From Octadecabacter sp. SW4 (GTDB lineage Bacteria; Pseudomonadota; Alphaproteobacteria; Rhodobacterales; Rhodobacteraceae), in NCBI RefSeq assembly GCF_008065155.1, contig NZ_CP042819.1, positions 2,734,922-2,798,921 on the forward strand: a stretch of DNA of 64,000 nucleotides, written 5' to 3'. The position numbers were made by a program, and so were the translations under genes. The notes beneath the pieces are model-generated. The model saw nothing but the letters and a program-made list of their open reading frames with translations, searched no databases and was not told the origin of the DNA. Positions 36,497-42,802 of this stretch are shown piece after piece. The stretch's first letter is position 1. The number at the start of each line of letters is the position of its first letter.

Positions 36497-36632
36497 GGCA
36501 TGACCTTACAGTGTTCTGCGCTGCCGTAAATCCACCCATGCCGCAATGCAGCGAATTGACAAGGTCATAAAGTGTCGATTATCCATGACTTTGAGAAATA
36601 AAATTACCGAACCTGATTCAAGAGGCCGCCCG

Positions 36633-38600
36633 ATGTCGCACCCGCAGAAAGATCGCCCCTGGCTGTTCCGCACCTATGCGGGCCATTCGACGGCAGCAGC
36701 CTCCAACGCGCTTTATCGTGGTAACCTTGCCAAAGGGCAAACCGGCCTGTCGGTGGCCTTCGATTTGCCGACGCAAACCGGTTACGACAGCGATCACGAA
36801 CTTGCCAGGGGCGAGGTTGGCAAAGTTGGCGTGCCGGTCTGCCACCTGGGTGACATGCGCGCGCTTTTTGCTGACATTCCGCTTGATCAGATGAACACTT
36901 CAATGACGATCAACGCCACCGCCCCTTGGCTGCTCTCGCTCTATATCGCGGTGGCCGAAGAACAGGGCGCCGATACCGCCGCCCTGCAAGGCACCGTGCA
37001 GAACGATATCATCAAGGAATACCTGTCGCGCGGCACCTATATTTGCCCGCCAGAACCGTCCTTGCAGATGATCACCGACGTGGCGGCCTATACCCGCCAA
37101 CACCTGCCCAAATGGAACCCGATGAACGTTTGCAGCTACCACCTGCAAGAAGCGGGCGCGACACCGGAACAGGAACTGGCCTTTGCGCTGGCCACGGCTA
37201 CTGCCGTTCTGGACGACCTCAAGGGCAAGGTCGCGCCGGATGATTTCCCCGAAATGGTCGGACGGATCAGCTTTTTCGTCAACGCAGGTATCCGCTTCGT
37301 GACAGAGCTGTGCAAGATGCGCGCCTTTGTCGAACTGTGGGATGAAATCTGCCTGACCCGCTATGGTGTCCAAGACCCCAAATTCCGCCGCTTCCGCTAC
37401 GGTGTGCAGGTCAACTCGCTTGGCCTCACCGAACAGCAGCCGGAAAACAACGTCTATCGTATCTTGCTGGAAACGCTGGCGGTGACCTTGTCGAAAAACG
37501 CCCGCGCCCGCGCCGTGCAATTGCCCGCATGGAACGAGGCCCTTGGGCTGCCCCGCCCCTGGGATCAACAATGGTCGCTGCGGATGCAACAAATCCTCGC
37601 CTATGAAACCGACCTGCTGGAATTCGGCGATCTGTTTGATGGCAGCCCCGTCGTCACCGCCAAGGTCGATACCCTCAAGGATGGCGCGCGCGCTGAACTG
37701 GCGCAGATCGATGCGATGGGCGGGGCCGTGGGCGCGATTGACTACATGAAATCCCGTCTTGTCGAAAGCAACGCCGCGCGTATCGCCGCCATTGAATCGG
37801 GCGAAACAACGGTTGTTGGCGTCAACAAATGGACGGCTGGCGAACCCTCGCCACTGACTGCTGGCGACGATGCGATCATGGTCGCCGACAAGAACGCCGA
37901 GGCCGATCAACTGGCCCGCCTTACCGCGTGGAAGGCCACGCGCGACGATGCCGCGGTGCGTACCGCCCTTGCCGATCTGCGCGCCACGGCCAAGGCTGGC
38001 GACAACGTCATGCCCCCCTCGATTGCCTGCGCCAGGGCTGGTGTCACGACCGGCGAATGGGCCGATGTGATCCGCGCCGTGCATGGCCAGTATCGCGGAC
38101 CAACCGGCGTAAGCCACAACCCGTCCAACCGCACCGAAGGGCTGGACGATATCCGTGACCGCGTTGCAGCCGTCAGCCAGCGCCTTGGGCGGCGCCTGAA
38201 ATTTCTCGTCGGGAAACCCGGCCTTGACGGGCATTCCAACGGGGCCGAACAAATCGCAGCACGTGCCCGCGATTGTGGCATGGATATATCCTACGAAGGC
38301 ATCCGCCTGACCCCCGCTGAAATTGTCGCAGCCGCACAAAAGGACGACGCCCATGTGATCGGTCTGTCCATCCTGTCGGGTTCGCATATCCCGCTGATCG
38401 GCGAGGTCATCGCGCAGTTGGACGCAGCCGGTCTTGGCCATATTCCGATCGTCGCTGGCGGGATCATTCCCGAAGACGACGCTGCGCAATTGCGGGTAAT
38501 GGGTGTCGCGCGGGTCTATACGCCAAAGGATTTCGAATTGAATAGCATCATGGATGATATCGTCACCCTGGCCGATCCCACCGAAGTGGCCGCGCAATAG
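36633..38600 (+). CDS. ecm: Ethylmalonyl-CoA mutase
   Basis: A 655-residue B12-dependent mutase. The N-terminal TIM barrel has RPWLFRTYAGHSTA, GLSVAFDLPTQTGYDSDH and NTSMTINATAPWLL. The C-terminal cobalamin domain has the base-off motif region GKPGLDGHSNGAEQ and GLSILSGSH. It converts ethylmalonyl-CoA to methylsuccinyl-CoA, the step after CCR and epimerase. Start ATG 36633 gives MSHPQKDRPWLFRTYAGH, with AAGAGG a few bases upstream; the open frame before it is unlike family members. It is divergent from the acyltransferase gene. Confidence 0.95.
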   Translation: MSHPQKDRPWLFRTYAGHSTAAASNALYRGNLAKGQTGLSVAFDLPTQTGYDSDHELARGEVGKVGVPVCHLGDMRALFADIPLDQMNTSMTINATAPWLLSLYIAVAEEQGADTAALQGTVQNDIIKEYLSRGTYICPPEPSLQMITDVAAYTRQHLPKWNPMNVCSYHLQEAGATPEQELAFALATATAVLDDLKGKVAPDDFPEMVGRISFFVNAGIRFVTELCKMRAFVELWDEICLTRYGVQDPKFRRFRYGVQVNSLGLTEQQPENNVYRILLETLAVTLSKNARARAVQLPAWNEALGLPRPWDQQWSLRMQQILAYETDLLEFGDLFDGSPVVTAKVDTLKDGARAELAQIDAMGGAVGAIDYMKSRLVESNAARIAAIESGETTVVGVNKWTAGEPSPLTAGDDAIMVADKNAEADQLARLTAWKATRDDAAVRTALADLRATAKAGDNVMPPSIACARAGVTTGEWADVIRAVHGQYRGPTGVSHNPSNRTEGLDDIRDRVAAVSQRLGRRLKFLVGKPGLDGHSNGAEQIAARARDCGMDISYEGIRLTPAEIVAAAQKDDAHVIGLSILSGSHIPLIGEVIAQLDAAGLGHIPIVAGGIIPEDDAAQLRVMGVARVYTPKDFELNSIMDDIVTLADPTEVAAQ

Positions 38601-39043: not shown

Positions 39044-39589
39044 CTATTCCAACAAGGTAACAAGATCCTCATAGCGATAGCTGGGTGCGATCTTGCCCAT
39101 ATCGCCCGGGACAAAATTTACATCTGCGGGCAGGCACCCCAGCCCGCAGATTTGCGAGATCACCATATCACCCGTATCGAGATACCACAGCCGCCCGCCG
39201 GGCGTTGCAACGTAGCCGTCGATTCCTTCTTCCTCATCACCCTCGATATCATCGGTGCTGGGCACTTCGTTGTAATAATTGGGCGAATAGGCACCATGCG
39301 TGTGATACGACGCGGTAATGACATCAATATTGGCGGGGTCATCCGCAAGGCAACTTTCCGCGTCCCCGCGTGTCGGCGGCGAGGCCACCAATTCGCCCGC
39401 CCCGTCAAATCCGATATAGCCGCAATATTCTGCGTTTTCGGTGATCGAGCGCATCTGAACCCCGGCCAGCAGCTCCTGCGCAAAGGCCTGTTCAATCCCG
39501 TCCTGCGCTGCGACACCATGCGCAGCAAAACCCAGAATCGGCACGATCAACAGCCGCTTATTCGCCAAGTTTCTCAAGCAACTCGTCAT
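39044..39589 (-). CDS. Exported DUF4329-type protein A (tandem copy)
   Basis: A 181-residue protein with a signal peptide (LLIVPILGFAAHGVAA-Q, cleavage about residue 28). The mature domain has EYCGYIG (Glu54), HTHG (His96, His98) and NEVPSTDD (Ser111, Asp114), a Glu-His-His-Ser-Asp pattern like the JAMM/JAB metalloprotease site, and [11 protein letters not shown] and ICGLGCLP near the end. This resembles the DUF4329 family. Start ATG 39589 overlaps the 3' end of copy B by 32 bp. The function is unknown; a zinc peptidase is an inference. Confidence 0.75.
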   Translation of the reverse strand: MTSCLRNLANKRLLIVPILGFAAHGVAAQDGIEQAFAQELLAGVQMRSITENAEYCGYIGFDGAGELVASPPTRGDAESCLADDPANIDVITASYHTHGAYSPNYYNEVPSTDDIEGDEEEGIDGYVATPGGRLWYLDTGDMVISQICGLGCLPADVNFVPGDMGKIAPSYRYEDLVTLLE

Positions 39590-40103
39590 AGGTATATGCC
39601 TTTTCAATAGTGCCGTTGATACCTTTGTAAAATAGCGTCGCACGTGGAAGGCAACCAATCCCGCAAACCATCCGCGTTTGATTGTCCTTGGAATCGACAA
39701 ACCACAACCGCCCGCCCGGCGTGGCCACCCAACCGTTGATCCCCAGTGCGCGGTCGCCCTGCATATCCACATCACTTGGCACCTCGTTGAAGTAGCCGGT
39801 ATCAAAAGTGCCATGTGTGTGAAAAGACGCGATCACGACCATGTCGCTGGGCCAGACCGGCAGACAGCTGGCTTGGGTGCCCGCCTCTGGTTCGGTCGCG
39901 CCAAGGCTGCCATCGGGGTAGCGCCCGATATAGCCGCAGTATTCACGCTCTTTGCGAAATGACACCGGCTGCAGGTCTTCGAGAACCCCCATGACGAAAT
40001 CAATTTCTTCCCATGAAGGATCGACACCCGGCCGCGCCGTCACTGCAAAAGGCAGCACCGCGATACAGGTCGCAAGGCGCAGGGCGCGCATGAAATCAGC
40101 CAT
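39558..40103 (-). CDS. Exported DUF4329-type protein B (tandem copy)
   Basis: A 181-residue paralogue of the next gene, with a signal peptide ([16 protein letters not shown]) and the same pattern: EYCGYIG (Glu54), HTHG (His95, His97), NEVPSDVD (Ser110, Asp113), [11 protein letters not shown] and VCGIGCLP. Identity to copy A is high around the motifs and weak elsewhere, which indicates an older duplication. It is divergent from deoD with about 61 bp between the starts. Confidence 0.75.
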
Positions 40104-40164: not shown

Positions 40165-40869
40165 ATGACAATCCACATCGGAGCAAAGCCGGGCGACATC
40201 GCCGAAACCGTCCTGATGCCGGGCGATCCGTATCGTGCCAAATGGGCCGCCGAGGCCTTTCTGGAGAACGCCGTCTGCGTGAACGAAGTGCGCGGCATGC
40301 TGGGATTCACCGGCACATGGAAAGGCAACCGCGTAACCATCCAGGGGTCTGGCATGGGGATGCCTTCGCTGTCGATCTATGCCAACGAACTGATCACCGA
40401 ATACAACGCGCAGACGCTGATCCGCATCGGATCATGCGGCGGGATGCAGGACCATGTGGGCGTGCGCGACGTGATCCTTGCGACAACGGCATCAACGCTT
40501 TCGACCCCCTCGCGCGGGATATTCAAAGACCTGAACTTTGCGCCGACCGCCGACTTCGATCTGCTGCACAAGGCCTATCACGCCGCCGGGGCGCTCAAGG
40601 TCAAGACCCATGTGGGTGGGATCTATTCATCGGACGTGTTCTATGACGAACGCCCCGATCTGACCGAACAAATGCAGCGCCACGGCATTTTGGGCGTCGA
40701 AATGGAAGCGGCTGAACTGTATATCCTTGCGGCCCGGCACAAGCGCCGCGCCCTGGCCGTGCTGACTGTCAGCGACCACCTGATCACCCACGAAGCCTTG
40801 CCGGCAGATCAACGCGAGCGCAGTTTTGGCGATATGGTCGATATCGCGCTGACCGCGGCGTTCAGTTAA
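40165..40869 (+). CDS. deoD: Purine-nucleoside phosphorylase, DeoD type (hexameric)
   Basis: A 234-residue NP-I family enzyme: [48 protein letters not shown], and [10 protein letters not shown] with SDHLITHE. It splits purine (deoxy)nucleosides with phosphate. The start ATG 40165 matches the family N-terminus. It is a second, unrelated purine nucleoside phosphorylase in the window (the other is at 26.9 kb, trimeric type), here without a transporter. Its end overlaps the convergent FAD-oxidoreductase gene by 8 bp. Confidence 0.95.
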
Positions 40870-41944
40870 ACCGGTCTGGTCCAAAAGGGGCCAGCAGTTC
40901 ATCGCGCTGGCCGTGCAGAATGTCCTGCGCGGCCAGTTTGCCAACCAGCGGCCCCAACGTGATGCCGCTGTGCATCGCCGCCATATAAAGCCCCCGAACC
41001 CCGCGCGCTGCCCCGATCACCGGAAAGCCGTCAACCGGCACCGGGCGCTGGCCGGTCATGATCGACGCGACCTTCAGGTCAGGCACCGATGGCAGACGCG
41101 CGCGCAGCCTTTCCAGCATCTTGGCGGCGAAATCGGCCGGGCTTTCGCCCAAGTCCTCGTCAAGCCCGCCACCGCTGAACACCTCGCCCATGATGATACG
41201 GCCATCGTTTTCCTGCCGGAAATGGATATCGGGCGACATGATCACGTGGCGCAGGATCGGGGCCAAGGGCGCGGTATGCACGATCACGCCGGTCTTGTTG
41301 TCCATCGGCAGGCGCACGCTGACCTTTGCCAGCAGATCACCGCTGGCAACCCCCGTGGCAACCACCACATCATCGGCTGTCACATCACCAAAACTCGTCG
41401 TCACGCCGGTGACATGATCGCCATGCGTCACAATCCCCGTAACCTCGCACCCGGCAACCACGCTTGCCCCCCATCCTGCGGCGGCCGCAAGCAGGGCGCG
41501 CGTCATGCCCTCGCCGTCTGCTGCGCCTTCGACACTGGTGCGGATGCACTGCGCAGGCGGGTCGGCGACATTGGGTTCCAGCGCACGAAACCCGGACGCA
41601 TCAACCAATTCGGCCTCGTATCCAAACGCCTGCAATTCAGCGAAATGCGCATCGAAATCCGCGCCGCTGTCTTCCCACCACAGGCTGCCGTGCCAACGAA
41701 CGGGTGCCTGGGCCCCGATCCGGTCAGCCACATCGTGAAAGGCATCAATCGCTGCGCGGCGCAGGCGGAAATAGGCGGGCGTTTCGGCGAAATTCGCGTT
41801 GATCCATCCAAACGATTTACCACTGGCCCCGCTGGCCGGTGCGACTGCCTCAAGCACGGTCACATCCGCGCCACCCTCGGCCAGATGCAGGGCGATCGAC
41901 GCGCCGACGATCCCCGCGCCCACAACGATGACCTTCCGGGTCAT
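40862..41944 (-). CDS. FAD-dependent oxidoreductase (DAO family)
   Basis: A 360-residue enzyme with the FAD Rossmann motif [20 protein letters not shown] followed by VLEA, and the C-terminal DAO motif [19 protein letters not shown]. The family oxidises amino or N-methylamino acids such as glycine, sarcosine or D-amino acids. Its start overlaps the stop of the PhyH-family gene (ATGA), so the two are translated together, perhaps acting on the same substrate class. The substrate is unknown. Confidence 0.87.
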
Positions 41945-42744
41945 GATGGACGCCGAAACACAGTTGGAAACCAGTCTTCGCGCAGCTTTTGCCCAACGGA
42001 CATGCCGTGCCCCGGAAACGGCGGTGACGTGGGGCCGGGGCGCTGCACATAACGCGCATCATCGCCCAACAAACGCAGCGAAAACGCTCGCCTGCGCGCC
42101 GCCGCTTCATTGCCGCGCGCGCCGTGCAAAATGCCATAGTTAAAGGCCACTGCATCGCCCGGTTCCATGGGCCACTCCCGGATATCCATACCCTCGCCGT
42201 CAGGGTCCGGCACTGGCATATAGGCATCATCGTCGGGGTAGAAATTCGTCTCGGACAGCCAGCGCGTTGGCAACACCGGCTTTGGCCACAAATGCGATCC
42301 TGCAACACAGCGCAGGGATGCATCCGTCACCGGATCGACGGGCGACCAAAAGCTGACGTTCTGCACGCCATCGACAAAGTAATACGGCCCGTCCTGATGC
42401 CAGGGGGTTGGCTTGCTTGTGCCCGGTTCCTTGACCAGCACGTGATCGTGAAACACCTGCACGGCCTGCGATGCCATCAGATCGGCAGCCACTTCCGCAG
42501 CCGGAGACTGCCGGATTACCTCCGCGAACTCAGGGATGCGCGTCCAATTGCAGTAATCATCAAAAAAGCGCCCCGCCTCGCCCTCTTTCAGGTTCTCGGC
42601 GGCATAAGGGCCGGGGTCAGCCATATTGCGGTCAATGCCAGCGCGGATCGTTTCCACGTGATCGGCAAACAGCCCCCTGACCAGCACAACCCCGTCGCGC
42701 TGGTAGGCGGCAATCATTTCTTCGGTGACAAGTGCGTGTGGCAT
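41941..42744 (-). CDS. Phytanoyl-CoA dioxygenase (PhyH) family protein
   Basis: A 267-residue Fe(II)/2-oxoglutarate oxygenase: the iron motif WHQDGPYYF (His-x-Asp), the distal His in YGILHGARGN, and an Arg in RRRAFSLRLLGD for the 2-oxoglutarate. The start ATG 42744 (MPHALVTEEM) follows GGGAG. It is coupled with a DAO-family oxidoreductase, which suggests hydroxylation then oxidation of an amine or amino-acid-like compound. The substrate is not known. Confidence 0.85.
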   Translation of the reverse strand: MPHALVTEEMIAAYQRDGVVLVRGLFADHVETIRAGIDRNMADPGPYAAENLKEGEAGRFFDDYCNWTRIPEFAEVIRQSPAAEVAADLMASQAVQVFHDHVLVKEPGTSKPTPWHQDGPYYFVDGVQNVSFWSPVDPVTDASLRCVAGSHLWPKPVLPTRWLSETNFYPDDDAYMPVPDPDGEGMDIREWPMEPGDAVAFNYGILHGARGNEAAARRRAFSLRLLGDDARYVQRPGPTSPPFPGHGMSVGQKLREDWFPTVFRRPS

Positions 42745-42802
42745 CGTAAACTCCCGTTGGCACAAGTATGATCATGCCCGCCGCCAATGCCAAGGACACC
42801 AG

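Follow-up and report, generated by a model that had tools for sequence, protein, structure and literature searches.

Discussion of DUF4329 has centred almost entirely on its use as a warhead of toxins, and elsewhere it forms the C-terminal toxin domain of Rhs/PAAR proteins. What is the role of two adjacent genes in Octadecabacter sp. SW4 that each encode a whole, exported DUF4329 protein? The genes, here called A and B, lie on the minus strand of the 64,000-nucleotide stretch of contig NZ_CP042819.1 that was analysed (the window), and a reading made from the sequence alone had proposed that they encode two secreted zinc hydrolases, or toxin-like or immunity-related proteins. The pair and its parts are located as follows.

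39558–40103, minus strand: DUF4329 gene A (181 aa), the upstream gene of the pair; slot-I type A; PF14220, E = 3.7e-35
39044–39589, minus strand: DUF4329 gene B (181 aa), the downstream gene of the pair; slot-I type B; PF14220, E = 6.7e-36
39558–39589, minus strand: 32 bp shared by the end of A and the start of B
40035–40103, minus strand: putative signal peptide of A, from sequence inspection
39506–39589, minus strand: putative signal peptide of B, from sequence inspection
39765–39944, minus strand: span of the catalytic set of A, predicted from conservation in 129 relatives
39942–39944, minus strand: E54 of A, conserved in 128 of 129 relatives
39819–39821 and 39813–39815, minus strand: H95 and H97 of A, both conserved in 129 of 129 relatives
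39774–39776 and 39765–39767, minus strand: S110 and D113 of A (S/T110 and D113 each in 128 of 129 relatives)
39248–39430, minus strand: span of the catalytic set of B, predicted from sequence and conservation
39428–39430, 39302–39304 and 39296–39298, minus strand: E54, H96 and H98 of the catalytic set of B
39257–39259 and 39248–39250, minus strand: S111 and D114 of the catalytic set of B

The open reading frames and the alignment of A with B (41% identity over the whole proteins, E = 1e-42; 43% for the mature parts) bear out the description of two 181-residue paralogues that overlap by 32 bp. Both proteins match PF14220 far above its cut-off (123.2 and 120.8 bits, cut-off 28.6; model positions 2–116 of 116), which confirms the DUF4329 identity, and the motifs that they were said to share (EYCGYIG, HTHG, NEVPSxxD, ATPGGRLW, and a C-G-GCLP end) are all found in A and in B, as is the full JAMM-type set of five residues (E, H, H, S, D). 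Both N-termini are Sec-like by simple inspection, in agreement with the signal peptides noticed earlier. An alternative, longer frame for B (39044–39814) runs into A; the 181-residue start gives a good signal peptide, and the same 32-bp overlap occurs in a congener (G001, locus L040). A and B are probably translationally coupled in the window.

Conservation was assessed in a family set of 129 DUF4329 frames at 125 loci, mostly from Rhodobacterales. In A numbering (n = 129), S48, E54, C56, G57, C80, H95, T96, H97, E107, P109, S/T110, D113, T128-P-G-G-R132, W134, C147, and C151 vary hardly or not at all; besides the catalytic residues, these include four cysteines, an extra glutamate, and the TPGGRxW motif. 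Exactly 12 residues separate HxH from Ser/Thr in all 126 relatives that were scored (the three unscored are a truncated copy, one with Gln in place of Glu, and one distant member), as opposed to 7 residues in Prok-JAB (15 of 15) and RadC (22 of 22 scorable), so the long HxH-x(12)-SxxD spacing first seen in the pair holds for the family, and the lengthened loop contains the invariant E107. Comparison of the window with G001 gives dN/dS values of 0.13 (A) and 0.16 (B), which indicates that both genes are maintained; given this purifying selection and the near-invariance of the residues in 129 relatives, the long spacing is not due to chance.

Export appears to be a property of the DUF4329 family as a whole, since a simple heuristic detects a signal-like N-terminus or a lipobox in 127 of 129 relatives, and a lipobox is present in 16 of 16 proteins of one chromosomal slot (slot II, described below) versus 1 of 29 in slot I. 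The frames of the relatives are mostly 175–290 aa long, and the proteins are single-domain, with no carrier domain; the view of A and B as stand-alone, exported DUF4329 proteins with a JAMM-like E-HxH-S-D set was thus sound.

The link between DUF4329 and JAB enzymes is already published: the domain was placed in the JAB superfamily as Tox-JAB-2 (Zhang et al., 2012; PMC3482391). When 105 members were scanned one by one against Pfam, Prok-JAB was matched by 34 (7 of 26, best E = 0.0011, and 27 of 79, best E = 0.0014), all weakly and below the curated Prok-JAB cut-off, and no other unrelated family was matched by more than two members; being specific to this family, these weak matches support the link. 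In profile alignment with hhalign, HTH falls on the HSH of Prok-JAB and, beyond a gap of five residues, PSxxD falls on PSxxD; global mode also places ExCG on ExCG (E = 0.0027), although the local score is borderline (21.0, compared with 20.3 for the reversed profile; 1 of 200 column shuffles scored as high). Comparison with the RadC profile kept the motifs in register at a score no better than that of shuffles, and was set aside. The family thus resembles Prok-JAB (PF14464) and RadC (PF04002) in the order and register of HxH and PSxxD, and Prok-JAB also in ExCG, but differs from both in its own HxH-to-Ser spacing and in its TPGGRxW and CxxxC features. JAMM metalloproteases (Rpn11, CSN5, AMSH) share the E...HxH...SxxD logic; however, their motif is EXnHXHX10D (PMC6035221), whereas the spacing here is HxHx15D in 126 of 126 scored relatives, and a ubiquitin-like substrate is not expected outside the cytoplasm. 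AlphaFold models built from a four-sequence alignment were poor (mean pLDDT 54 and 47); the better of them has a helix, a strand around EYCGYIG, a strand ending near HTH, and a helix at SxxD. A Foldseek search with such a poor model gave no significant structural match, RadC, Sst2, STAMBPL1, and a bacterial deubiquitinase being among the matches at E of about 0.7 or more. A PDB sequence search with the protein and two family profiles gave no relevant match, and PADLOC, PHROGs, and NCBIfam made no assignment for the pair.

The distribution of the family suggests a resident function. DUF4329 occurs in 110 of 395 sampled Rhodobacterales genomes and in 43 of 140 genera, with one to four copies per genome, and is rare in wider samples (6 of 289 genomes in the class; 15 of 399 in the phylum, where 11 of the 15 carriers are members of the window's own family). 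Most copies lie in four recurrent places: slot I, with the order deoD, DUF4329, (hns), ecm, acyltransferase (26 loci); slot II, where a DUF4329 lipoprotein gene lies between tkt and gap (16 loci with tkt); slot III, at tesA and an ABC transporter (13 loci); and slot IV, at gcvP (21 loci). On the gene tree the slot labels require 5 changes, compared with 41 for shuffled labels, which means that each slot is largely inherited vertically. The genome of the window has four copies. The two outside the window are an exported DUF4329 protein in slot III (contig C1, 665618–666064) and a lipoprotein in slot II (contig C1, 1738079–1738549); the slot-III copy of the congener G001 (contig C69, 5740–6294) breaks off just after HTHSTFSP and is pseudogene-like.

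The neighbours of the pair in slot I are the following.

36546–38600, plus strand: methylmalonyl/ethylmalonyl-CoA mutase-type gene ("ecm"), a slot marker; PF01642 and PF02310
38697–39038, plus strand: H-NS-like gene, convergent with B at a distance of 5 bp; PF00816, E = 2.1e-13
40165–40869, plus strand: deoD, purine-nucleoside phosphorylase, divergent from A; a slot marker; TIGR00107

The hns gene is present at 12 of 26 slot-I loci and also in empty slots: in eight genomes without DUF4329 at this place, deoD adjoins hns and ecm (five genomes) or ecm directly (three genomes). The order deoD-hns-ecm therefore stands with and without DUF4329, and hns is a component of the slot rather than a sign of foreign DNA. 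The surroundings had been described as A+T-richer and as including an H-NS gene; this is true but mild (GC of 0.56 and 0.57 for the DUF4329 genes and 0.54 for hns, compared with 0.61 for the window), and the hint of a foreign island that it carried is rejected. Beside deoD, FAD oxidoreductase-like and phytanoyl-CoA dioxygenase-like frames overlap by 4 bp (40862–42765).

Slot I also records the history of the pair. On the gene tree, which is a quick one, the slot-I copies fall mostly into type A (10 rows, support 84) and type B (19 rows, support 97), both of them old. Both types are kept, in the order A-B, only in the window, G001, and one further genome (G423), that is, at three of the 26 slot-I loci; seven of the others have A only, thirteen B only, and three another type. 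The survey thus answers in the negative the question of whether the pair is always tandem, and the pair is not obligatory. The simplest history that we infer from the quick tree starts with an ancient tandem duplication, after which different lineages lost different copies. Another tandem DUF4329 pair (L051) lies in a different position and is of unrelated origin. Two positions differ consistently between the types: position 101 of A (39801–39803), in the loop between HTH and PSxxD, where all A-type proteins have Asp and most B-type proteins have Ser, and position 155. These positions are candidate sites of divergent specificity, that at 101 being in the predicted active-site loop.

Against this background, a weapon or an immunity device seems improbable. 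Tox-JAB-2 toxins share with the pair the same full-length Pfam domain and the same E, H[ST]H, S, D signature (PMC3482391), whereas A and B are whole exported proteins without an Rhs/PAAR carrier or an immunity gene, in conserved chromosomal slots; at the 125 loci, no immunity gene, toxin carrier, secretion system, mobile element, or small partner recurs beside DUF4329, so membership in a toxin module with an immunity partner finds no counterpart here. Secreted Tox-JAB-2 proteins of large DNA viruses and Xanthomonas phages are, like A and B, single secreted proteins of the same clade (PMC3482391), but they are viral, and no relevant match was found in phage records (by tblastn) or in viral contigs (by peptide and spaced DNA pattern). 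Plasmid matches are limited to two Rhizobium phaseoli records, one of which, pRphaN671a, encodes a 193-aa DUF4329 protein (L253, 4887–5465) in a possibly defence-rich region with Shedu, AbiGi, PD-(D/E)XK, and TcmP genes. A stand-alone Tox-JAB-2 secreted against competitors would accord with the Rhs/PAAR toxins and with this defence-like setting; the lack of an immunity gene, carrier, or secretion domain, the fixed and mostly vertically inherited slots, the lack of viral copies, and frames mostly of 175–290 aa make it quite improbable. Two paralogues side by side might also suggest a non-catalytic or immunity-like protein with the fold kept for binding, for example with one copy guarding against the other. 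This is very improbable, as every catalytic residue is kept in A and B, no toxin-like partner recurs, and 23 of 26 slot-I loci have one copy only, which is of type A, of type B, or of neither. The toxin-like or immunity-related alternatives of the sequence-only reading therefore yield to vertically inherited syntenic slots, the lack of a partner gene, and intact catalytic residues in both copies.

The main rival reading is nuclease activity, in which the DUF4329 site would cut RNA or DNA and an exported enzyme would serve nutrition by breaking down nucleic acid outside the cell or in the periplasm. Toxin JABs have been argued to be possible nucleases because the groove for the ubiquitin tail is lost (Zhang et al., 2012; PMC3482391), and in later papers Tox-JAB-2/DUF4329 appears among the RNase or nuclease effectors, for which reason the bond cut by A and B could be a phosphodiester. 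The divergent neighbour deoD, a nucleoside salvage gene, would fit such a role, but deoD also lies next to ecm in genomes that lack DUF4329, so that deoD is a slot marker and is rejected as a functional partner, and the remaining slots adjoin tkt/gap, gcvP, and tesA genes. On balance, we consider an exported nuclease rather unlikely.

Intact catalytic residues together with export make a resident envelope metallohydrolase the best reading, and the pair is best placed in a widespread, conserved envelope family of roseobacters, not in a toxin system. More specifically, A and B would be exported, probably disulphide-bonded, JAMM-like metallohydrolases in the producer's own envelope, a proposal that we put at about an even chance. 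As single-domain enzymes of JAB/JAMM fold, they would be exported by Sec and, after signal cleavage, would fold with the four conserved cysteines probably joined in disulphides. The two histidines of HTH and the aspartate of SxxD would bind a metal ion, most likely zinc, with E54 as the general base assisted by the serine/threonine of SxxD; the loop, which has five more residues than that of other JAMM-type enzymes, would present the extra invariant glutamate (E107 in A). In the producer's own periplasm or cell envelope, the enzyme would most likely cleave a peptide, isopeptide, or amide bond, and the role would be one of resident, partly dispensable physiology and not that of a weapon, with A and B as old paralogues of one slot.

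Some neighbours hint at peptidoglycan. A YkuD L,D-transpeptidase gene lies directly upstream on the same strand at four slot-III loci of one subclade (L047, L049, L050, and L252), and at six loci (including L168, 3588–5336) this place is taken by a gene for a caspase-like protein that is exported and carries a peptidoglycan-binding domain. Each arrangement is confined to one lineage, and a link to peptidoglycan is therefore kept as a weak pointer. A bolder proposal, under which the family would be the first dedicated envelope branch of bacterial JAMM enzymes, is doubtful; its members would be exported metallopeptidases or amidases, with disulphides and a remodelled active-site loop, and the producer's cell-wall peptides or envelope proteins would be their substrates.

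To our knowledge, JAB/JAMM enzymes otherwise occur within cells or as parts of injected toxins, and no exported DUF4329 protein or exported bacterial JAMM enzyme was found in the literature searched. The domain and its JAB link were known, but the papers searched contained neither the slot-resident, exported family with its four cysteines nor the pair's history. Resident, exported DUF4329 proteins with an intact JAMM-type site occupy fixed places in over a quarter of the sampled Rhodobacterales genomes, which opens a putative enzyme family of abundant marine bacteria to direct tests. Such stand-alone proteins are suited to settling whether the DUF4329 site cleaves peptides or nucleic acids, and the family hints at the way in which a resident enzyme and a toxin domain may descend from one ancestor.
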